Assembly (NCBI RefSeq): GCF_008698145.1
Contig: NZ_RZNZ01000002.1
Coordinates: forward strand, 1 to 64,000
Source of the DNA: Bifidobacterium vespertilionis
GTDB lineage: Bacteria > Actinomycetota > Actinomycetes > Actinomycetales > Bifidobacteriaceae
Reading direction: 5' to 3'
Length of the DNA stretch: 64,000 bases
Below are positions 3,728 to 61,587 of this stretch, one piece after another. Within the stretch, counting starts at the first letter, position 1. The number at the start of each line of letters is the position of its first letter. The translations under genes and the position numbers were made by a program. Under the pieces are notes generated by a model that worked only from the letters and a program-made list of their open reading frames with translations, was not told the origin of the DNA and did not search any database.

Positions 3728-3840
3728 CGTCATCCTGAGCGAAGCGCAGCGGAGTCGAAGGATCCTTAGCTTCCATGACTTGGTGCACAGTGGCCAAGGA
3801 TCCTTCGACTTCGGCCTGACGGCCTCCGCTCAGGATGACG
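3728..3840. repeat. Dispersed palindromic repeat, TCATCCTGAGCG family
   Basis: An inverted repeat begins CGTCATCCTGAGCG and ends CGCTCAGGATGACG. Internal arms read AGTCGAAGGATCCTT and AAGGATCCTTCGACTT. The same end sequences recur at 10035, 10393, 12061 and 61293. It lies directly downstream of dnaE and could form a long hairpin in RNA. Confidence 0.85.
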
Positions 3841-10034: not shown

Positions 10035-10080
10035 GTTATCCTGAGCGCTGAGCCGTACATAGCGGCGTCGAAGGATCCTT
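10035..10080. repeat. Partial TCATCCTGAGCG-family repeat
   Basis: GTTATCCTGAGCGCTGAG followed by GTCGAAGGATCCTTG matches one half of the dispersed palindromic repeat. The mirrored half is missing. A GC-rich region between 9905 and 10034 contains a duplicated TCGTCGCCGGCTGACGG and no gene. Confidence 0.65.
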
Positions 10081-10156
10081 GAACCCTGTCAATTGGCCGT
10101 CGGCAACGTGTTTTCGATGCGCGTGGCAGCTGTTCCGCGGCAATTTCGGGGCTATG

Positions 10157-10374
10157 TTGCATAGTGGGGGCGGATTTCGGCCTTTGCAGAATGCTATACA
10201 TCAAAGTGGGGGCGTGAAATCCCGAGCATCCGCCATATTTGTCGCATCAGCTTGGCGTTTTTCCGCGGTTTTTCAATGGCCGTCGTTCCCGTGCGCCCGT
10301 CATGGCATGGCGGGGACGCCCCCACTTTGACGTATATCGCTCGGAAAAGGCCGAAATCCGCCCCCACTTTGCGA
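10157..10374. repeat. Mirrored repeat element, AGTGGGGGCG core with 42-bp step
   Basis: AGTGGGGGCG occurs at 10163 and 10205. Its reverse complement occurs at 10317 and 10359. The step is exactly 42 bp on both sides. The full arms (~58 bp) are near-complementary, with a ~95-nt centre. It lies between the convergent genes priA and the DUF2252 gene. Confidence 0.8.
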
Positions 10375-10392
10375 GATATCGAGTCGGAACCG

Positions 10393-12060: not shown

Positions 12061-12271
12061 TTCATCCTGAGCGCATGTTGGCTTTCCCGTCATCCTGAGC
12101 GAAGTCGTCCTCCGTCATCCTGAGCGCAATCCTGAGCGCAGTCGAAGGATCCTTAATTCCATGAGTACAGTTAAGGATCCTTCGACTCCGCTGCGCTCCG
12201 CTCAGGATGACGGCGGGGAAAGCCGCTCGCTCAGGATGACGGCGGGGAAAGCCGCTCGCTCAGGATGACGC
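12061..12271. repeat. Cluster of TCATCCTGAGCG-family repeats
   Basis: Four left ends (TCATCCTGAGCG or ATCCTGAGCG) are followed by the GTCGAAGGATCCTTAA/TTAAGGATCCTTCGAC palindrome and three right ends (GCTCAGGATGAC). The last two right ends sit in an exact ~29-bp direct duplication. The cluster occupies the divergent gap between the DUF2252 gene and glnA. Confidence 0.85.
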
Positions 12272-12335
12272 CGCCTTTACCCACTCCACGACATGTTAAC
12301 GGCGGATGAAATAATGTCATGCCACCATGGTCCGC

Positions 12336-15645: not shown

Positions 15646-15694
15646 GTGAGCGATTCGGACCTGTGAGTGAATCGGATCTGCGAGCGAATCGGAT
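15646..15694 (+). repeat. Three tandem ~17-bp units before a hypothetical gene
   Basis: GTGAGCGATTCGGACCT, GTGAGTGAATCGGATCT and GCGAGCGAATCGGATAG follow each other directly and end 12 nt before ATG 15707, just before the Shine-Dalgarno-like GGGGAGCGG. They could form an operator array. Confidence 0.6.
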
Positions 15695-27798: not shown

Positions 27799-27985
27799 CT
27801 TGTGGTCAGCCTGCCATGGTAGTTGGCTGCTTGCCGCGGAGCGAGGCTGTTTGCCATGGCGGTTGGTTGCGCGCCATGACGTCTGGCTTTCTGCCTGTCT
27901 GCCATGGCGGTTGGTTGCTCGCCATGATGGCTGGCTATCTCTGCCTGCCGTGACGGCTGGCTGCCTGCCATGACGGCTGTTGTGA
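27799..27985. repeat. Degenerate ~20-bp tandem repeats
   Basis: About eight units related to TGCCATGGCGGTTGGTTGC follow each other at ~20-27 bp steps; one long unit is nearly repeated at 27854 and 27900. They fill the convergent gap between the efflux gene and lexA. No ORF in the region looks real. Confidence 0.7.
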
Positions 27986-28074
27986 TGGCCGATTCTGAGC
28001 GATCGCTGTAGCGGTTTCCCGTTTTGGCGGTCAGTCGCTACAGTCTGCCGCTACAGGCGTTGGTAGTTAGGCAC

Positions 28075-49912: not shown

Positions 49913-49929
49913 CGGTCCGCCTGTGCCGT

Positions 49930-50396
49930 GACGCGGGGTGTGACTGGGCGTGTGACGCGGGGTGTGACCCGGCGTGCGTTGTGACCCGGCGTGTGACATG
50001 GTGTGGACGCACCCGGTCACGGGGCATCAAAAACGTTGAAATAAAGCCATTTTAAAACCCCTGTGACCGGGAATGGGCACACCCGGTCACACCCCGCGTC
50101 ACAACGCACGCCATGTCACGCCCCCGATCGCGCCCGGCCCCGCCTGCCCACTCCCGACTGCCCACACCCGATCGCGCCCGGCCCCGCCTGCCCACTCCCG
50201 GCCACGTCCGGCCGCAAACTGGGCAAATCGGGATCATCGCAACGCAAACTGGGCAAACCAGGACGTTCGATTTGCAAACTGGGCAGAACGGAACATCTGG
50301 AGGCCGATTTTGGCGTCCAGACGACCAGATCTGCCCAGTTCACAAAACAACAGTCCCGATCTGCCCAGTCTGCGACACAACAGGGGGCACAAACAT
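49930..50396. repeat. Compound mirrored repeat element, copy A
   Basis: Module 1 (~49930-50112) has GTGAC recurring mostly at 12-bp steps on the left and GTCAC on the right around an AT-rich centre (CGTTGAAATAAAGCC). Module 2 (50214-50370) has AAACTGGGCA three times at 30-bp steps (50216, 50246, 50276), then two inverted copies (CTGCCCAGT at 50331 and 50361). The whole is near-identical to the reverse complement of 58595-59012. No gene is supported between 49769 and 50566. Confidence 0.85.
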
Positions 50397-50566
50397 TACA
50401 ACCGGACAGAACCCGAAACCATCCCCCCACGATGTGGAAACGGGGGATCCAAAAGCCGGGCCGCATTCGCCCCGTGGCGTCCTCATCCGTATGCTTGACC
50501 GGGCCAATTGAACAAGTACGTAGTCAAGATTGAATCTACGATGCTATTGCCAAGGAAAGGAATCCG

Positions 50567-50908
50567 ATGAAGAAAACCATCAGCGCGATGCTGGGCGCGG
50601 CCATGCTCATTGCCCTGGGATCCTGCGGCGCCGGCGAGCCTGCGGAGCAGAAGAGCGAGGCGGCGCAGCCCACGCTCTCCTCCATCACCGTCAACTACAC
50701 CGGCTCCACCGATCCGGACACCACGATCAGCGATCTGAGCAACATGGAGGTGACCGGCCAGTACAGCGACGGCGCGACGAAGACCCCGGAGGGATGCGAG
50801 CTGCTGAGCCCGGTGACGCTGAAGCCCGGCACCACCTATCTGGTGACCGTGGTGTGCGGCAGCGTGACCGGCGACACGACCGTGACCGGCAGCGGCGAGG
50901 CGCAGTGA
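50567..50908 (+). CDS. Small lipoprotein
   Basis: A 113-aa exported lipoprotein of unknown function. The signal peptide MKKTISAMLGAAMLIALGSCG has a lipobox (LGSC) with lipidation at Cys20. The mature part (~93 aa) is Thr/Ser-rich with beta-strand patterning (LSSITVNYTGSTDPDTT; GATKTPEGCELLSPVTLKPGTTYLVTVVC) that recalls a bacterial Ig-like fold with one disulphide. AAGGAAAGGA precedes the ATG. It is monocistronic and faces the convergent ssrA gene. Confidence 0.82.
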   Translation: MKKTISAMLGAAMLIALGSCGAGEPAEQKSEAAQPTLSSITVNYTGSTDPDTTISDLSNMEVTGQYSDGATKTPEGCELLSPVTLKPGTTYLVTVVCGSVTGDTTVTGSGEAQ

Positions 50909-51031
50909 TGCGGAGTCGGTGACGGCGGGCATTTGGCGGGCCGGTGGCGATAGTACGGCGGCCCGCCGCGCGATGCCCAAGGTGTGCGCAATATGACGCT
51001 CAATAGCGCGCAATATGCGCGGAATATGAAA

Positions 51032-51073
51032 GAGGGCTTGGAATCGTTGGTTTTTCAACGTTTCCAAGCCCTC
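51032..51073 (-). terminator. Terminator of ssrA
   Basis: A 12-bp outer stem (GAGGGCTTGGAA / TTCCAAGCCCTC) and an inner CGTTG/CAACG stem. On the minus strand the hairpin is followed by TTTCAT. It lies just beyond the tmRNA 3' end and may also stop the lipoprotein transcript. Confidence 0.75.
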
Positions 51074-51082
51074 TGGCTTTGT

Positions 51083-51475
51083 GGAGCTGCGGGGAATTGA
51101 ACCCCGGTCCGATGACCGAACCCTCAGTCTTCTACGTGCGTAGTCTGCTGGCCGTATGGCATTTTTTCTGCCCCCATCTGTGTCGCAGACAACCGATGGC
51201 GGGCATATCCACAGTTAAAGTCCCGACGTCGCCCTGCGGCCCGGCGACATCAGCAAGTCTTCTAAACGACGCTCAGCTTCTCCCCGAAGACATGAGAGAG
51301 TGAACGGAGCGGCTGCTCACTGGTTAATCCTGGCGCGAAGCTCAGGCAGCGAGAGCGAACTCAGTGCGGTTAGATTTAGCACTTATTCTTTTGCAGGGGA
51401 CATCCACGAGCGGACCCTGCGTTCTCGGCACGCTTCCCTGCGACGAACAGGTCACCGTCGAAACCGATCAGCCCC
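51083..51475 (-). ncRNA. ssrA: Transfer-messenger RNA (tmRNA)
   Basis: Rescues stalled ribosomes by trans-translation. The 5' end (GGGGCTGATCGGTTTCGAC) and the 3' tRNA-like part (GGACCGGGGTTCAATTCCCC, then GCAGCTCCA) pair as an acceptor stem with the T-arm intact. The CCA end is not encoded in full. The tag ORF (51380 down to 51342) reads AKSNRTEFALAA followed by TGA, the Bifidobacterium tag. One-piece form, about 393 nt; the exact 3' end is accurate to a few bases. Confidence 0.96.
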
Positions 51476-51605
51476 AATCTTGAATTATCAAGCTTCCGAC
51501 CATTTCCGTATGGATCCGGACGGACATTTCAATTTACCACAGTTGATACAACAAATCAAATCGGACGATTATTCCCAAGGCCTTCCCATCGTCCCCTCGG
51601 GCGGG

Positions 51606-51611
51606 TAGGTT
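51606..51611 (+). promoter_or_regulatory. -10 hexamer of proS, predicted leaderless
   Basis: TAGGTT-GGAACCC-ATG places the hexamer 7 nt before the proS start codon, with no Shine-Dalgarno sequence. Confidence 0.55.
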
Positions 51612-51618
51612 GGAACCC

Positions 51619-53439
51619 ATGAGTTCCAAAGCATTACGAATGTCCACCATGTTCCTGCGCACTCTGCGCGAGGACCCCGCGGACGCGGACGTCGATTCGG
51701 CCAAGCTGCTCCAGCGCGCCGGCTACATCCGCAAGGCCGCGCCCGGCATCTGGACCTGGCTGCCGCTGGGCCTGAGCGTCCTCAACAAGATCGAGGCGAT
51801 CATCCGCGAGGAGATCAACGGCATCGGCGCCCAGGAGGTCCACTTCCCGGCCCTGCTGCCGCGCGAGCCCTACGAGGCCACCCACCGCTGGGAGGAGTAT
51901 GGCGACAACATCTTCCGTCTCAAGGACCGCCACCAGGCCGACTACCTGCTCGCGCCCACCCATGAGGAGATGTTCACCCTGCTGGTCAAGGACATGTACT
52001 CGTCCTACAAGGACCTGCCCGTCACCCTGTACCAGATCCAGACCAAGTACCGCGACGAGTTCCGCCCGCGCGCCGGCCTGATCCGCGGCCGCGAGTTCAT
52101 CATGAAGGACGCCTACTCCTTCACCATCGACGAGGAGGGCATGCGCAAGGCGTACCACGACGAGCGCGGCGCCTACGAGCGCATCTTCCAGCGCCTCGAC
52201 CTCAAGTACGTGCCGGTGTTCGCCATGTCCGGCCCCATGGGCGGCTCCGCCTCCGAGGAGTTCCTGGCCCCCATGGCCATCGGTGAGGACACCTTCGCAC
52301 TGGCCCCTTCCGGCAAGGCGTGGAACGTCGAGGCCCTGACCACTCCGGAACTGCCCGAGATCGACAGCTCGAACACCCCCGCCGCCTCCAAGCGCCCCAC
52401 CCCGGACGCCAAGAGCATCGAGAACATGATCGCGCGCGCCAATGCGGACAACCCGCGTGCGGACGGCCGCGAGTGGCAGGCTTCGGACATCCTCAAGAAC
52501 GTGGTCATCACCGTCAAGCACCCCGAGGACGCGGACCACGACGAGCCGTGGCGCGAGGTCATCGTGGTGGGCGTGCCCGGCGACCGCACGGTGGACATGA
52601 AGCGTCTGGAGGCTCAGTTCGCGCCGGCCGAGCTTGAGGAGGCCACCGAGGAGGACCTCAAGAAGCATCCCGAGCTGGTCCCCGGCTACATCGGTCCGAT
52701 GGTCCTCGGACCGCAGGCCAAGGCCGCCGGCGTGGAGGAGCCCGTGCGCTACTTCGTGGACGCGCATGTGGTCAAGGGCTCCGCATGGTTCACCGGCGCC
52801 GACGAGAACGAGGTCGACTACTACGATCTGGTCTACGGCCGCGATTTTGAGGCGGATGGCCGCGTGGAGGCCGTCGAGGTCCGTCACGGCGACATGAGCC
52901 CGGACGGCTCCGGCCCGCTCAGCTTCGAGCGCGGCGTGGAGATCGGCCAGGTCTTCCAGCTGGGTCTCAAGTACTCCAACGCGCTGGACCTCAAGGTGCT
53001 CGACCAGAACGGCAAGACCGTCCCGGTGTGGATGGGCTGCTATGGCATCGGCGTCTCCCGCGTGCTCGCCTGCATCGCCGAGACCCATCATGACGACGCC
53101 GGTCTGGCGTGGCCCGCGGTCATCGCCCCGGCCCAGGTGCATGTGGTGGCCACCGGCAAGGATCAGGCCGCCTTCGACGCCGCCGAGAAGCTGGTGGACG
53201 AGCTGGAGGAGCGCGGCATCGAGGTCATCTACGACGACCGTCCGAAGGTCTCCCCGGGCGTGAAGTTCAAGGATGCCGAGCTGATCGGCGTGCCGCTGAT
53301 CGCCGTCGCCGGCCGCGACACCGTGAACAACGGCACCATCGAGATCCGCAACCGCGACGGTTCGGACAAGGTCGCTGTGGCGGCGGCTGACGCCGCCGCC
53401 ACGCTGGCGGACCGCCTCGCGGCCCTGCTGCAGCGCTGA
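51619..53439 (+). CDS. proS: Prolyl-tRNA synthetase, bacterial type
   Basis: Class II aminoacyl-tRNA synthetase, 606 aa, with the bacterial architecture. Motif 1 and 2 regions ([47 protein letters not shown]) are followed by the inserted editing domain (INS, ~residues 220-400). Motif 3 is in [19 protein letters not shown]. The C-terminal anticodon-binding domain starts at ~500. ATG 51619 is chosen from the TAGGTT block 7 nt upstream; an in-frame start at 51610 is less likely. Confidence 0.96.
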
Positions 53440-53466
53440 ACGAAGAGCTGAAAGCGTCGATAGCGC

Positions 53467-53505
53467 AACAGGCCCGCCCGGAAAAACCGGGCGGGCCTGT
53501 TTCAT
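53467..53505 (+). terminator. Intrinsic terminator of proS
   Basis: A perfect 15-bp stem (AACAGGCCCGCCCGG / CCGGGCGGGCCTGTT) with an AAAAA loop follows the proS stop by 27 nt and runs into a short T stretch. Confidence 0.9.
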
Positions 53506-53588
53506 GTCCTTTTTCATGTTCGCACGGTCTATGGAACGAGGTGCGGTTGATGGGTGCGGCTGGGTATCGGGCGGTTTCTGCGTGGTAT

Positions 53589-53785
53589 CTGCATAATCAG
53601 GGGTACTTTTGCCCTTTTGCAGACACCTATCTGCATAATCGGGGTGATCGACGCGGCCGCTTCGGCCGATGAGCGCCGAATTGAAACGTTTGAATTAGTT
53701 TGTTCGGCATCGGGGATGAGGATGACCGTCCCTGATTATGCAGATAGGTGTCTGCAAAAATCGAAATGTACCCCTGATTATGCAG
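53589..53785. repeat. Mirrored repeat element, CTGCATAATCAGGGG core with 42-bp step
   Basis: CTGCATAATCAGGGG at 53589 and CTGCATAATCGGGG at 53631 are mirrored by CCCTGATTATGCAG ending at 53743 and CCCCTGATTATGCAG ending at 53785. Each pair is exactly 42 bp apart. TGCAGACACCTAT is also shared between arms. It lies between the convergent genes proS and the DUF559 gene, and the last copy overlaps the stop codon of the latter. Confidence 0.85.
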
Positions 53786-54725
53786 TTGTGGCCCATGGTG
53801 CCCTCCACAGGTGACGGGGCACGACATCCCAAAGAGGTTTGCGGGTTCTTCTTCGTCCGTCGCAGATCTGACGAACGGTCATTCTCGGGCGCAGGGGTAC
53901 CGGGACGCCGAGCACGGCCTCGCATTTCGTCGCGATGCGTTGTGCCAGTCGTTCCTCACCCTCCTCGCTGCGCAGATCCACCACCGTGACTTTGATGTAA
54001 ATCCATCCCAGATCTTCCAACTCCTCCCGCCGTTGGTCGTCGCGCAATACCTGATCCCCACTGAATCGATGGTAGTTCCCGTCATATTCAATGGCTATGC
54101 GGAGCTCCGGATAAGCATTGTCCAGAAAGATAATTCGGCCATTGGGCAGCCGAACCGGATGATTCACCACCGGTTCGGGCAGGCCGTACATCATCGGGAC
54201 CAATCGCGTGCGCGTCTCCTGGGAGGAGTCGGTGCCTTCCTGCATCAGCGCGAGCGCCCGGTGGCAATTGCGAATGCCGTGGAAATGATCGGCTCGCCCA
54301 AGATAGGCATGAAAGTCCTCCAAGGAGGCGCGGGTCAGCCGCCTGTCCCGACGCATCAGGGATTCTCCCAGCACGATGAGTTCCTTGAGAGTCAGTATGC
54401 CGGCATAGTGCGCCCATGTGCACACGGGCGTGGTGCACAGCACGGTCCTTCCGATGGGTGCCGCTTCTATTGGACCCGTCCATGACAGGAAACGCACGCC
54501 TTTGATCCGGCCCTTGCCGTTCTGATCCGCCACCACCACATCCATGTCGGTGCGGCGACGTTCGGCCTCGGGCTCGATGGGCTTCTCCACGGCGAGCAGC
54601 TCCAAGGCGTCGGACCTTGCGAAGACCAGCGGATGCTTGGTGCGGCGCTGCAGGGCGTCGCATGCCTCGAAACGACGGCGCTTCAGATCGGTGAGTGCTT
54701 CCAGTGAGTATGATTCGGTGCTCAT
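53778..54725 (-). CDS. Protein with C-terminal DUF559-type endonuclease domain
   Basis: A 315-aa cytoplasmic protein. The N-terminal ~170 residues resemble the AbiEi-like/winged-helix part of many actinobacterial proteins (LVFARSDALELLAVEKP; TTPVCTWAHYAGILTLKELIVLGESLMRR). The C-terminal part has a PD-(D/E)XK-like vsr/DUF559 fold (DNAYPELRIAIEYDGNYHR, then RREELEDLGWIYIKVTVVDL). Such genes are common in actinobacteria and have no settled role. TAGCGT lies 7 nt before ATG 54725. The stop codon and last codons lie in the adjacent mirrored repeat, so the C-terminus may have been altered by it. Confidence 0.75.
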   Translation of the reverse strand: MSTESYSLEALTDLKRRRFEACDALQRRTKHPLVFARSDALELLAVEKPIEPEAERRRTDMDVVVADQNGKGRIKGVRFLSWTGPIEAAPIGRTVLCTTPVCTWAHYAGILTLKELIVLGESLMRRDRRLTRASLEDFHAYLGRADHFHGIRNCHRALALMQEGTDSSQETRTRLVPMMYGLPEPVVNHPVRLPNGRIIFLDNAYPELRIAIEYDGNYHRFSGDQVLRDDQRREELEDLGWIYIKVTVVDLRSEEGEERLAQRIATKCEAVLGVPVPLRPRMTVRQICDGRRRTRKPLWDVVPRHLWRAPWATTA

Positions 54726-54732
54726 GCCTTCG

Positions 54733-54738
54733 ACGCTA
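54733..54738 (-). promoter_or_regulatory. -10 hexamer of the DUF559 gene, predicted leaderless
   Basis: Minus-strand TAGCGT-CGAAGGC-ATG has the same 7-nt spacing as the other predicted leaderless starts. Confidence 0.45.
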
Positions 54739-54804
54739 TCCGGTTCTTCCATCCGGCGAAAGCCCGAACCGTCCCGCGGTGCACAAGTGGATATCTCGTG
54801 TCGC

Positions 54805-54855
54805 TGTGGATGAATGTGGCCCGAAATGGCGGGGTTATGCAGGGGCTTATCCACA
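54805..54855. promoter_or_regulatory. DnaA-box-like sites upstream of ssb
   Basis: TTATCCACA at 54847-54855 is a perfect DnaA box, and TGTGGATGA at 54805-54813 is a one-mismatch inverted copy. They lie in the 408-nt divergent gap before ssb. I see nothing else defined in that gap apart from TATAAC near 55096, a possible ssb -10. No dnaA or AT-rich unwinding region is nearby, so this is not called an origin. Confidence 0.4.
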
Positions 54856-55133
54856 CAACGCGCTACGACACGCGCGAAACCATGGCTTGGGGGGACACAT
54901 TCGCGCACATCGGCCCGCGCGGCTTGAGGGCGGCGGCACCGATGGGGCACAGTGGGCATCACCGCTCAGGACGCGGCGCCGGACGGCACGGCGGGGAAAG
55001 GACCATCTCAGTCATCCCTCACTCTTCCCCATGCGTGTCCCTGCTGAGACGCCGCGGCCCGAAGCGGGCCAATGTCATCCCGGCCAAGACCGGGACCCTA
55101 TAACCGCAAACAGCCACAAGGAAAGGAACCAAC

Positions 55134-56165
55134 ATGGCACAGCAAGGCATCGTCACCATCAACGGATATGTGGGAGGCAAACCCCGCCGCCTGGGGCAGG
55201 AGGGAGGCACGCCCATCAGCGTGTTCAACATGGGCACCACGCGCAGCTTCTTCAGTCAGGCCAGCGGACAGTGGGTGGATCTGCCCACGCTCTGGGTCAA
55301 GGTGAAGGCGTTCCGTTCGCTGGCCCTCAACGTGCTGGATTCGGTCCACAAGGGGGAGCCAGTGATCGTGACCGGCCAGATCGGCATGGAGGAGTGGACC
55401 GATCGCGACGGCCGGCAGCAGACCACCATCGTGATCAACGCCACGAACATCGGGCACGATCTGAACACCGGCCGGTCGGTGTTCACCAAAATGCCGCGCA
55501 ATAACCAGAACGGGCAGGGCGACCAGCAGAATGGCCAGAATGCCCCTGGAGATCCTCAGCAGAACGGCGAGGGCCGGGATCCCTTCAATGAGTCGCAGGG
55601 GTACGGTGCCAACCAAGGATACGGCGGCAACCAGGGCTACGGCGGCAACCAGGGATTTGGTAATCAGGGCGATCAGGGTTACGGCGGCAATCAACAGTGG
55701 AACAATCAGCAGGGCAGCAACCAGCAGGCCAGTGGCGGCCCGGGGTACGGCAATCAGGGGTATGCCAACCAGCGAGGATATGGCGTCGGCGATGGGGGCG
55801 GCGCGTCCGGTCCGATGAACGGGATGCCGGGGCCGTCCGGGCAATCCGCGCCGGGTGCCTTCGATCGGGGCGTTGCCGATGCCGGCCCGTCGGCATGGTC
55901 CCAGCGCAATCAGCAGTCCTCGCAGCAGCCGCCCGTCCGCGCTCAGGAGCAATCGTCGCAGACCGGCATTCAGACCACGCAGACGTCGTCGCTTCAGTCC
56001 GGCGCCGCTCCGGGCTCGCAGCCGGGGGATGCTGCGCAGTCGGGGGAGTCCTCGCAGTCCACCACGGTTCAGCAGTCCGCCTTGTCTCAGCAGTCCGCCC
56101 CCGCACCGGCGGTTCAGACCGACAGCTTCGGCACCGAAACGGAGAATGGGAATGAGGAATTCTGA
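55134..56165 (+). CDS. ssb: Single-stranded DNA-binding protein with long low-complexity tail
   Basis: An SSB-like OB-fold protein of 343 aa. Residues 1-~120 form the OB domain (VTINGYVGGKPRRLGQEGGTPISVFNMGTT; WVDLPTLWVKVKAFRSLALNVLDSVHKGEPVIVTGQIGMEEWTDRDGRQQ). The remaining ~220 residues are Gln/Asn/Gly-rich with repeated NQGYGG units, like an intrinsically disordered linker. The C-terminus ends ETENGNEEF, acidic with a terminal Phe but without the classic DDDxPF tip. AAGGAAAGGA precedes the ATG. It may be a second SSB rather than the essential one. Confidence 0.85.
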   Translation: MAQQGIVTINGYVGGKPRRLGQEGGTPISVFNMGTTRSFFSQASGQWVDLPTLWVKVKAFRSLALNVLDSVHKGEPVIVTGQIGMEEWTDRDGRQQTTIVINATNIGHDLNTGRSVFTKMPRNNQNGQGDQQNGQNAPGDPQQNGEGRDPFNESQGYGANQGYGGNQGYGGNQGFGNQGDQGYGGNQQWNNQQGSNQQASGGPGYGNQGYANQRGYGVGDGGGASGPMNGMPGPSGQSAPGAFDRGVADAGPSAWSQRNQQSSQQPPVRAQEQSSQTGIQTTQTSSLQSGAAPGSQPGDAAQSGESSQSTTVQQSALSQQSAPAPAVQTDSFGTETENGNEEF

Positions 56166-56328
56166 GCGCGGGCGGCGGGCTCGAGGTCGGCTGCGGAACG
56201 AAACCAAGACCAGACCGCGGACCAGATCCGGCGATCAACCCCGCGGCGGTCGATCGCCGAGGTCGCCGCCCCTCGCCGGAAGCCCCGCGGGCGCCCGCCC
56301 GCTTTCGCTCTGAATTGTGTACCATCGC

Positions 56329-56384
56329 GAAAGCCCCTCCGAAACGCCGAAATGAGAAGGGATCGGCGCCCCGGAGGGGCTTTC
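56329..56384. terminator. Bidirectional terminator between ssb and pepO
   Basis: A perfect 13-bp stem (GAAAGCCCCTCCG / CGGAGGGGCTTTC) with a 30-nt loop. It serves two convergent genes. Confidence 0.75.
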
Positions 56385-56443
56385 TCGCGTCAGTGCTGAG
56401 TCAACGATGCATCAGCACTGCATCAAGCGATGCGTCGGCGCGA

Positions 56444-58516
56444 CTACCAGATGCGCACGCGATCGGCCGGGTCGAGCCACATGCCGTCGCCGGGCTTCAC
56501 ATCGAACGCCTCGGCGAACAGGTCCACGTTGCGCACGATGCCGTTGGTGCGGCACTCGGCGGGGGAGTGCGGGTCGATCTGCAGGTACTGCTCGGCCAGC
56601 TCGTCGCGGTTCTTTGTGCGCCAGATCGAGGCGTAGCTCAGGAAGAAGCGCTGCAGGCCGGTGAAGCCGTCCATCTCGGGCGCCTCGGCGAGCGCGGCGC
56701 GGATCGCCTCGGGGCTGCCGGATTCGGCGCTGGCCGGGTCGATCGCGAAGGCGTAGGCCTTGAGCGCGATGTTCACGCCGCCCAAATCGCCGATGTTCTC
56801 GCCGATCGTCAGCGCGCCGTTGACGTGCGGGGCCTTGCTCGGATCGTCCGCGTACTTGGCCTTGAGCTGCTCGGGCACGAAGGCGTTGTACTGCTCGATC
56901 AGCGCGTGGGTGCGGGCCTCGAAGTTCTTGCGATCCTCGTCGGTCCACCAGTTGTTGAGCTTGCCGTCGCCGTCGTACTGCGAGCCCTGGTCGTCGAAGC
57001 CGTGGCCGATCTCGTGGCCGATCACCGCGCCGATGCCGCCGTAGTTCGCGGCGTCGTCCGCCTCCGGGTTGAAGAACGGGGGCTGCAGGATGGCCGCCGG
57101 GAACACGATCACGTTCATGGTCGGCTCGTAGTAGGCGTTCACGGTCTGCGGGTTCATGAGCCACTCGTCCTTGTCCACCGGCTTGCCCACCTTGGCGAGC
57201 TGGTAGCCGGTCTCGTACAGGGCGGAGGCCTTGGCGTTGGCCGCGTAGGGGGCATCGGCGCTCACGTCGAGGGCGGAGTAGTCGCGCCAGTGGTTGGTGT
57301 AGCCGATCTTCGGGGAGAACTTGGAGAGCTTCTCCAGCGCCTTGGCCTTGGTGGCCTCGCCCAGCCAGTCGGAGTTCGAGATGGAGACGCGGTAGGCGTC
57401 GATCAGGTTGGCGACGAGCTGCTCCATGCGCTCCTTGGAGCTCTCCGGGAAGTGACGCTTCACGTACTCGCGGCCCACGTCCTCGCCGCAGGTGGCGTTG
57501 ACCAGGCTCACGGCGCGCTTCCAGCGGTCGCGCTGGGCCTTGGCGCCGGAGAGCACCTTGCCGTAGAAATCGAAGTTGGTCTCGTCGAACTGCTTCGACA
57601 GGCCGGAGGCGGCGCCGATGATCGCGTGCACGCGCGCCCACAGCTTCAGATCCTCCAGATCGGCGGACTTCCAGAAGTCGTTGAGGCCGGTCAGGAAGCT
57701 GGGCTCGTGCACGATCACCTTGGCGAACACGGCCTTGAGGTCGATCGGCTGGGCCTTGGCGGCGCTGGTCGCGTCGTAGGCGGTCTGCCAGGCGTCGATC
57801 CAGGCGGCCAGATCGAAATCGGCCAGCGTGGCGGCCAGATCCTCGAAGGAGGTGGGGTTGTAGGTCTTCACGGAGTCGCGCGTGGCCACGTTGTCCCAGT
57901 GGTGCTTGGCGATGCGGGTCTCCACATCAAGGTAGCGCTTGGCGGCCGCGTCGGCCTCGTCGCCGGAGGCGTAGCCGGCGTTCTCGAGCTGCTTGGCGAC
58001 CATGGCGACGTAGGCCTCGCGCACGGGCGCGTAGTGGTCGTCGCGGTAGTAGGCCTCGTCGGGCAGACCCAGACCGGCCTGCTCGATGTGCGCGATGTTG
58101 AAGTCGGGATTTCCCGGGTCGCCGAAGATGTACAGACCGAACAGGTCGGGGCCACCGGTGGGGTTGAGGATGCCGAGCACGCGGGTCAGCGCGGCCTTGG
58201 ACTCGGCGGCGTCGATGTCGTCAAGATCGGGGCGGATCGGGTTGATGCCGGCGGCCTCGATGGCGTCGGTGTCCAGGAAGCTCTTGTACAGGGCCGCGGA
58301 CTTGGCGGCGGGGCAGTCGTCCTCCTCGAGGATCTCGCGCACCTGCTTTTCGGCGTCCTCGGCGAGCTTGTCGAAGGAGCCGTAGCGGGAGCGGTCGTCG
58401 GGCAGACGATAGGTGTCGATCCACGGGCCGTTCACGTAGCGGAACAGGTCCTCGGATGGCTTGGTGACGGAGGAGAAGGATGCCGGATCAAGGCCGGAAG
58501 TCAGTGCATTGGTCAT
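56444..58516 (-). CDS. pepO: M13 family metallopeptidase (PepO-like endopeptidase)
   Basis: A zinc endopeptidase of the neprilysin family, 690 aa, with no signal peptide, so cytoplasmic. The N-terminal M13 domain is helical. The catalytic domain has NAYYEPTMNVIVFPAAILQPPFF, the zinc motif HEIGH (in GAVIGHEIGHGFDDQGSQYD, near residue 500), and GENIGDLGG with the third zinc ligand Glu. The C-terminal RVRIW end is typical of the family. It likely degrades short peptides taken up from the gut. TAGGCT lies 6 nt before ATG 58516. Confidence 0.95.
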   Translation of the reverse strand: MTNALTSGLDPASFSSVTKPSEDLFRYVNGPWIDTYRLPDDRSRYGSFDKLAEDAEKQVREILEEDDCPAAKSAALYKSFLDTDAIEAAGINPIRPDLDDIDAAESKAALTRVLGILNPTGGPDLFGLYIFGDPGNPDFNIAHIEQAGLGLPDEAYYRDDHYAPVREAYVAMVAKQLENAGYASGDEADAAAKRYLDVETRIAKHHWDNVATRDSVKTYNPTSFEDLAATLADFDLAAWIDAWQTAYDATSAAKAQPIDLKAVFAKVIVHEPSFLTGLNDFWKSADLEDLKLWARVHAIIGAASGLSKQFDETNFDFYGKVLSGAKAQRDRWKRAVSLVNATCGEDVGREYVKRHFPESSKERMEQLVANLIDAYRVSISNSDWLGEATKAKALEKLSKFSPKIGYTNHWRDYSALDVSADAPYAANAKASALYETGYQLAKVGKPVDKDEWLMNPQTVNAYYEPTMNVIVFPAAILQPPFFNPEADDAANYGGIGAVIGHEIGHGFDDQGSQYDGDGKLNNWWTDEDRKNFEARTHALIEQYNAFVPEQLKAKYADDPSKAPHVNGALTIGENIGDLGGVNIALKAYAFAIDPASAESGSPEAIRAALAEAPEMDGFTGLQRFFLSYASIWRTKNRDELAEQYLQIDPHSPAECRTNGIVRNVDLFAEAFDVKPGDGMWLDPADRVRIW

Positions 58517-58522
58517 GGTCCC

Positions 58523-58528
58523 AGCCTA
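58523..58528 (-). promoter_or_regulatory. -10 hexamer of pepO, predicted leaderless
   Basis: Minus-strand TAGGCT-GGGACC-ATG gives a 6-nt spacing, and the intervening bases resemble the GGAACCC block at other starts. Confidence 0.45.
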
Positions 58529-58594
58529 TCCGCGTTCGGCGACACGGGCGTGCGGGCGTGCGGGCGTGCGGTGGGCGCGCGGCCGGGGGTGTTC

Positions 58595-59012
58595 CCCCTG
58601 TTGTATTGCAAACTGGGCAGATCGGGACTGTTGTTTTGTGAACTGGGCAGATCGGGACTGTTGTTTTGTGAACTGGGCAGATCTGGTCGTCTGGACGCCA
58701 AAATCGGCCTCCAGATGTTCCGTTCTGCCCAGTTTGTGTTGCGATGATCACGATTTGCCCAGTTTGCGGCCGGACGTGGCCGGGAGTGGGCAGGCGGGGC
58801 CGGGCGTGACCGGGTGTGGTCGGGCGCGATCGGGGTGTGACATGGCGTGCGTTGTGACGCGGGGTGTGACCGGGTGTGCCCATTCCTGGTCACAGGGGTT
58901 TAAAAATGGCTTTATTTCAACGTTTTTGACGGCTCGTGACCGGGTGCGTCCACGCCATGTCACACGCCCGGTCACAACGCACGCCATGTCACACATCCAG
59001 TCACACGCCTCG
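58595..59012. repeat. Compound mirrored repeat element, copy B (inverted relative to copy A)
   Basis: Three ACTGGGCAG motifs end at 58620, 58650 and 58680 (30-bp step), followed by two inverted TGCCCAGTTTG motifs at 58726 and 58756. The GTGAC/GTCAC module with the AT-rich centre follows to ~59012. The block is near-identical to the reverse complement of 49930-50396, differing mainly by gain or loss of 30-bp units. It occupies the gap between the divergent genes pepO and the DUF308 gene; no gene is supported there. Confidence 0.85.
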
Positions 59013-59206
59013 TCATGCCATTGAGGGGGGCTCCGTCGCTCCGGATCACTCGACAATCTGTTGTGTGATGTTCAGATTTTAAGCCAGTTCCCAAGAAACG
59101 TTCATAGGTTGACGTTCAGAAGGCGGTTGGAGGGTCGTCGCCCGAGACACGGCGACGGCGGCCGGCCGCCCGAGAATGCGAAACCACTGATAGTTAAGGA
59201 GTCTCG

Positions 59207-61292: not shown

Positions 61293-61448
61293 GTCATCCT
61301 GAGCGGAGCCCGATAGGGCGGAGTCGAAGGATCCTTAACTCTGCGCACCAAATGATTGGTGTGTAATGGCCAAGGATCCTTCGCTGCGCTCAGGATGACA
61401 GCGGGGGCACATCGCTCAGGATGACCGTGCGGGCACGTCGCTCAGGAC
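61293..61448. repeat. TCATCCTGAGCG-family repeat with extra right ends
   Basis: The left end GTCATCCTGAGCG, the inner GTCGAAGGATCCTTAA / AAGGATCCTTCG palindrome and three right ends (GCTCAGGATGAC at ~61389 and ~61414, GCTCAGGA at ~61440) lie between map and gltA. The 382-nt gap also has a GCATTTCA/TGAAACATGC imperfect palindrome near 61510, but no gene. Confidence 0.8.
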
Positions 61449-61587
61449 GGCAACTGCGCATCCGGCCTCCCGGTGTGGCGCGGACGGGCGGCGCGGACAT
61501 CCCATGCCCGCATTTCAAGCATGAAACATGCCGTTTTACAGGCGGTTGATATGGTGGGGGCTCAATATCACGCCGAAAGGGGTAGCA

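Follow-up and report, generated by a model that had tools for sequence, protein, structure and literature searches.

A dispersed palindromic repeat family in Bifidobacterium vespertilionis with a genus-wide core that is a putative DNA-bending site

Two near-identical repeats of about 0.4 kb, here called copies A and B, lie in inverted orientation in a 64,000-nt stretch of Bifidobacterium vespertilionis DNA (the window, by which we mean the stretch at its full length). They raise the question of whether they form a pair that can flip the essential genes between them, as a first-pass annotation proposed, or belong to something else. A repeat search of the window recovers both copies where they had been noted, 8.2 kb apart and about 88–93% alike, as four inverted alignments: 49941-50124/58832-59015 (184 nt, 91% complementary), 50243-50383/58628-58768 (141 nt, 89%), 50147-50264/58717-58834 (118 nt, 88%) and 50325-50391/58590-58656 (67 nt, 93%). 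When B is reverse-complemented, its longest stretch of perfect identity with A is 95 bp. Each copy consists of two distinct hairpins joined together, module 1 and module 2, arranged as follows.

49928..50125, + strand: copy A, module 1, a hairpin of inverted GTGACNNRGNGTG arrays
50030..50053, + strand: 24-bp core, the apex of copy A module 1
50126..50203, no strand: copy A, GC-rich linker with a 34-bp direct repeat (50123-50156 and 50167-50200)
50204..50391, + strand: copy A, module 2, in which 30-bp CTGGGCAGATC units (3 forward, 2 reverse) surround GGCCGATTTTGGCGTCC
58590..58768, - strand: copy B, module 2, 2 forward and 3 reverse 30-bp units when read in the copy-A direction
58831..59015, - strand: copy B, module 1, a hairpin of inverted GTGACNNRGNGTG arrays; an element of this kind also lies in the corresponding gap of B. 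moraviense
58903..58926, - strand: 24-bp core, the apex of copy B module 1

The arms of module 1 are inverted arrays of GTGACNNRGNGTG units on either side of the AT-rich 24-bp core AAANCGTTGRAATNAAGCCRTTTY, and all 16 occurrences of GTGACNNRGNGTG in the window fall within A or B. Module 2 has arms of 30-bp CTGGGCAGATC units and an apex, GGCCGATTTTGGCGTCC, that is distinct from that of module 1. Its unit counts had been given as 3+2 in A and 2+3 in B, which is correct, and the differing counts among copies support the proposed gain and loss of units. A constant total of five is seen in A, B and one copy from a different contig (C45), but four further sites (L032, L038, L048 and L061) have 2+2. 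By analogy with the BIME-1 and RIB elements of enterobacteria, our preferred reading, held with moderate confidence, is that A and B are members of a dispersed mosaic palindromic family in which the module-1 core is likely to be a site for a DNA-bending host protein.

A whole-copy search of the B. vespertilionis genome returned 135 matches. In 31 extracted stretches and the window we count at least 42 sites with 36 module-1 and 34 module-2 clusters, a lower bound because two module-2 sites (C44 and C1) and further cores are left out of the count. The A–B pair is real but not special, being two members among these sites, of which 23 have one of each module, 10 module 1 only, 6 module 2 only and 3 multiples. 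All 42 are intergenic, with no called gene inside any of them (codon-usage caller), and they are enriched in convergent gaps (15/36 family sites vs 10/85 other gaps, p=4e-4). The nearest relative of copy A is the C45 copy, to which it is 94% identical in module 1 (B, 91%) and 97% in module 2 (B, 89%). The open-licence PubMed Central (PMC) literature on Bifidobacterium repeats, palindromes and inversions yielded no description of the family, which does not prove that none exists, and in the same open-licence papers six 14-mers taken from the core turned up in only two, both unrelated.

Across Bifidobacterium the two parts of the element behave differently: the core is genus-wide and the arms are confined to this genome and its near relatives. 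The annotation had called for a search for further copies in the genus, and outside the B. vespertilionis genome this search matched through the apex only: the whole copy matches 8 of 112 genus genomes, the seven besides its own by 22–27 bases each. Allowing ≤2 mismatches, the 20-base core is present in 27 of 101 genus genomes and the reversed pattern in none. A sequence-only profile built from 25 cores (threshold E≤0.1) matches 109/112 genus genomes, with 52 matches in the B. vespertilionis genome and 1–36 in the other matching genomes; the consensus AAANCGTTGRAATNAAGCCRTTTY derives from 40 non-redundant cores of 30 genomes. In an order-level sample of 99 genomes the profile matches 8, four of which belong to the genus, and the remaining 4 of 95 contribute five weak matches (best E 0.016). 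None of 51 core loci elsewhere has a called gene covering the core, as judged by a caller that was trained on the present genome and found few genes in AT-rich species. The neighbours of the core are varied, with xfp, guaA and sugar transport genes among them, and tRNA genes lie near some cores. A search with the 30-nt core gave chance-like matches to 13 phage and 41 plasmid records, with no Bifidobacterium among the matches listed (20 of the 41 for plasmids). A replication fork barrier of the Ter type was rejected: in 24 complete genomes, the sizes of some of which were rounded, the 70 best among the matches listed run 35 with and 35 against the fork and show no cluster at the terminus.

Several features near cores were recorded besides. 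The 8-mer CGACACGC is enriched there (17 genomes vs ≤5 in shuffles), partly via orthologous loci. At one locus (L347) two cores in direct orientation, at 1231 and 4414 and thus 3.2 kb apart, flank a gene that we take to resemble a DUF262 (GmrSD-like) protein. In B. moraviense (L351) cores at 872 and 8871 lie near the ends of an 8-kb stretch that adjoins glutamine synthetase and has an integrase beside one of the cores, and in one complete genome the core directly follows dnaA (L355, 1513-1542).

A recurrent neighbour of the core is a tyrosine integrase gene: at 12 loci and in phage PMBT6 the core stands about 40–250 bp upstream of integrases that are mutually diverged. Scanning viral contigs with four core variants identified 8 that carry it, and in four (L365, L367, L369 and L372) it lies just upstream of a Phage_integrase gene. 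Five scanned proteins from L366, L370 and L371 include no integrase, the proteins of L368 were outside the protein scan, and L368 and L371 are low in GC. Among 51 core loci of ±1.5 kb, a tblastn search with five integrases placed the start of an integrase or fragment no more than about 250 bp from the core in four (L063, L231, L296 and L304, the last a weak match of 77 residues), and extra stretches added the orthologues L345 and L346, L356 and, in the B. vespertilionis genome, L362. Pfam confirms the integrases at L063, L231 and L356; the fragments at L296, L304, L345 and L362 reach no Pfam family. At L312 the far end of an integrase faces the core, and at L081 and L223 integrase fragments lie further away. 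As a control, 51 other loci (39 from the same genome and 12 from relatives; 533 kb) had matches in 3, L362 among them, a rate that predicts about 0.2 at no more than 300 bp from the 51 cores. On inspection by eye, core and integrase are separated by two or three short direct repeats at 11/12 loci, and a tRNA end or gene end, a candidate att end, lies beyond the motif at L365, L231, L356, L362 and L372. In PMBT6 the motif is 166 bp upstream of the integrase, cut by the start of the record (E 0.0055), and a second motif, in inverted orientation, is present at the opposite end of the record (E 0.0023). The motif is absent from five Gordonia and Mycobacterium phages. Compared at full length, the integrases are mostly 21–43% identical, apart from two closer pairs (87% and 67%), which makes it improbable that the motif they share is their own site; a relatedness search gave 2, 2 and 4 further integrase loci, which were few or at a contig edge. 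From this diversity of integrases within one host genus we infer that the core is best read as a putative host-factor site.

The arms, in turn, differ between species. The pepO/DUF308 gap of B. moraviense (L149), which is orthologous to that of copy B, contains a pair of long hairpins built on a 21-bp unit, GCGCTCCGCGTGACGCAG; the first of them has a diverged core at its apex (15658-15684, 13.4 bits). At this gap the site and the core are common to both species and both arms differ. Hairpins of the B. moraviense type form a family of their own, matched in 7 of 39 genome records, with 54 matches in B. moraviense (records G207 and G032 have identical rows and were taken as one genome), 22 in the B. 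vespertilionis genome and 20 in G005. The copies in the B. vespertilionis genome have GGAGCG units and lie at C46:98141-98300, C14:15475-15653 and C33:197752-197932, among others. Elsewhere, strong inverted flanks (150 bp, z>5) accompany 15 of 60 core loci of other genomes, in units unlike those of the present genome, and 19 of the 60 beat all 40 shuffles, the loci being partly non-independent.

Whether these arms are kept for their pairing bears on a first rival, an RNA element in which long hairpins at gene ends would act in the termination or stabilisation of messages, with the core as no more than the loop. The copies fold as RNA well beyond shuffled sequences (z -9.8 and -10.8), and the excess of convergent gaps fits such a role. 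In 35 aligned module-1 copies inverted unit arrays flank the core on both sides; however, two-sided changes occur in 0 of 39 predicted pairs, and the degenerate unit letters pair in 41.6% of cases vs 47.7% in shuffles. This suggests that the arms are kept as motif arrays and not as a stem under pairing selection. In addition, the cores that adjoin integrases are mostly outside long hairpins, and tmRNA is the sole Rfam family in the window. We consider an RNA element unlikely. Two narrower candidates were rejected: a covarying RNA stem, on the two pairing results together with core pairing at chance level, and the idea that every core is a hairpin loop, on the chance-level core pairing.

A second rival is a non-autonomous mobile element, MITE (miniature inverted-repeat transposable element)-like or derived from a phage attachment site (attP), whose copies were spread by a recombinase acting in trans with the core as part of its target. 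Composite layouts do recur, with module 2 before module 1 at 18 of the 23 one-of-each sites and the reverse order at 5, A and B among these 5, and the core does lie beside integrases. Yet inspection by eye of the 18 aligned sites of the commoner order and of the sequence to the right of 35 cores showed no sharp common ends; target duplications were not seen either, and the B. vespertilionis genome has no match to the Y1 (IS200-like) transposase family PF01797 (control, matches in 5/14). The pepO/DUF308 gap is filled in B. moraviense too, so the site is old, and the integrases that adjoin the core are too diverged for one recognition site. We regard this explanation as quite improbable. Transposition by a RAYT (REP-associated tyrosine transposase) of the kind that moves repetitive extragenic palindromic (REP) sequences was likewise rejected for lack of a Y1 transposase, as was a phage or plasmid origin of the arms, given that whole-copy blastn matched nothing in either collection.

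Many of the 18 sites with module 2 before module 1 are adjoined by a GTCATCCTGAGCG palindrome, as seen on reading the alignments. The GTCATCCTGAGCG...GAAGGATCC repeat occurs in the window at 3728-3839, 10047-10080, 12121-12285 and 61293-61451 and also flanks many composite sites genome-wide; at a guess, the GTCATCCTGAGCG repeat beside many copies may be CGTC/GTAG-REP-like.

A third rival, which takes up the inversion originally proposed, is a cassette in which homologous recombination between A and B would flip the 8-kb segment and give both orientations in a population; it concerns the following genes.

50567..50908, + strand: small lipoprotein-like gene (lipobox by eye; one weak, sub-cut-off Pfam match)
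51079..51475, - strand: ssrA (tmRNA); no other Rfam family was found in the window
51610..53439, + strand: proS
53778..54752, - strand: the DUF559 gene of the annotation, whose sole match is a sub-threshold one to REase_MTES_1575 (Pfam)
55134..56165, + strand: ssb
56444..58516, - strand: pepO (peptidase M13)

Recombination is possible in principle, since the copies are inverted and share the 95-bp identical run, but the flipped order, with proS beside DUF308, is absent from 14 named proS loci of relatives (12 Bifidobacterium or Gardnerella, one uncultured Bifidobacterium and one Aeriscardovia). In six of the 14 (B. cuniculi, tibiigranuli, canis, pseudolongum, apousia and moraviense) the full order proS+ ssb+ pepO- DUF308+ map+ gltA+ is as in the window; five show a partial order, with the ssb match on the other strand in four of the five, and three have proS alone. 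Matches to dtd, ftsQ and murC near proS were found in none of the 14 loci (in four of which less than 10 kb upstream is present), and no tmRNA in the 6 relatives' loci searched, so the junction that is not conserved is ssrA–proS, inside the segment, and not copy A. Because A is closest to the C45 copy, on another contig, and dozens of other copies exist, nothing singles out the A–B pair. The inversion reading of the segment is not supported, and we judge it very improbable.

Returning to the host-protein reading, the closest known counterpart is E. coli BIME-1, in which two opposed REPs flank an integration host factor (IHF)-interacting sequence, according to a passage of PMC2817692; the title of a work cited there places RIBs at the 3' ends of transcription units. 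Both are intergenic palindromic mosaics with opposed repeats around a central sequence, as is the present family, which differs in its sequences, in its much longer arms of short-unit arrays, in its Actinobacteria host, in the lack of a RAYT-type (Y1) transposase in the genome and in that its core-binding protein is putative. In phage lambda IHF binds and bends the attP arms, and mycobacteriophage L5 uses mIHF (text excerpt and table, respectively, in PMC4111918). In its position the core resembles an IHF site of a lambda-type attP, since it precedes tyrosine integrases and, as read by eye, is mostly separated from them by short direct repeats; unlike such a site, the core is a 24-bp genus-specific motif found at many chromosomal sites without an integrase, and its binding is putative. 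Correia/NEMIS elements of Neisseria are likewise small repeats with an IHF site in one form, the 155-bp form binding IHF in vitro (part of PMC2229807), but they are MITE-like, having terminal repeats and empty sites that are known, whereas sharp common ends were not seen here by eye. GTAG/CGTC-tagged REPs, too, are dispersed palindromic repeats, and CGTC REPs also lack a dedicated transposase (part of PMC3733652); they differ in that their units are 20–40 bp, and neither Actinobacteria nor Bifidobacterium is mentioned in that part of the source. Pneumococcal BOX elements are described as modular interspersed repeats (excerpt of PMC3049150). Compared by description alone, they are like the present family in this modularity. 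BOX elements are made of box modules, and we know of no genus-wide core of the present kind in them.

In such an element a host DNA-bending protein would bind and bend the 24-bp core, the bend would draw the two unit arrays together, and the element would act at gene ends or in chromosome packing; composites would be copied from site to site, and the arms rewritten in each species by copying among units and sites. In a more specific form, which we advance tentatively and from sequence comparison, the genus may have its own IHF-like protein with a 24-bp site that is common to the attP of diverse integrases, and lineages may independently have built species-specific arrays around this site, RIB-like, with the arms rewritten and the bend site fixed. 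The new part is the genus-specific core site within a RIB-like element family. If true, this gives a concrete recognition site for a host factor in a medically used genus, explains why diverse bifidobacterial prophages have one accessory site in common, and provides an Actinobacteria parallel to enterobacterial RIB elements, in which the centre with the bend site is conserved and the arms are free to change.

Several observations weigh against the host-protein reading. In other genomes 45/60 core loci have no strong inverted flank and core-anchored pairing in the 40 non-redundant cores is not above chance, so that the majority of cores outside this species do not form the apex of a hairpin. 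The module-1 units are spaced at 12 and 17 bp, which is not in helical phase. A and B themselves sit between divergent genes and not at gene ends, and among gaps of ≥400 bp there is only a weak excess of convergent ones (14/32 vs 5/25, p=0.09). As for the link to integrases, 47 of the 51 core loci do not adjoin one, phage BigBern1 lacks the motif, and in Bbif-1, the integrase of which starts at the record end, no motif lies in the 1.5 kb at the other end.

Further repeats are present in the window. Between proS and the DUF559-like gene, 53589-53785 is a long inverted repeat with 56-nt arms (89%). It combines an AT-rich apex with CTGATTATGCAG-like units and seems to represent another family built in the same way. 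An inverted repeat at 10153-10378 has 63-nt arms (86%) with GTGGGGGCG units, and at 27807-27986 four imperfect tandem units of 46 bp are arranged around GCCATGGCGGTTGG.

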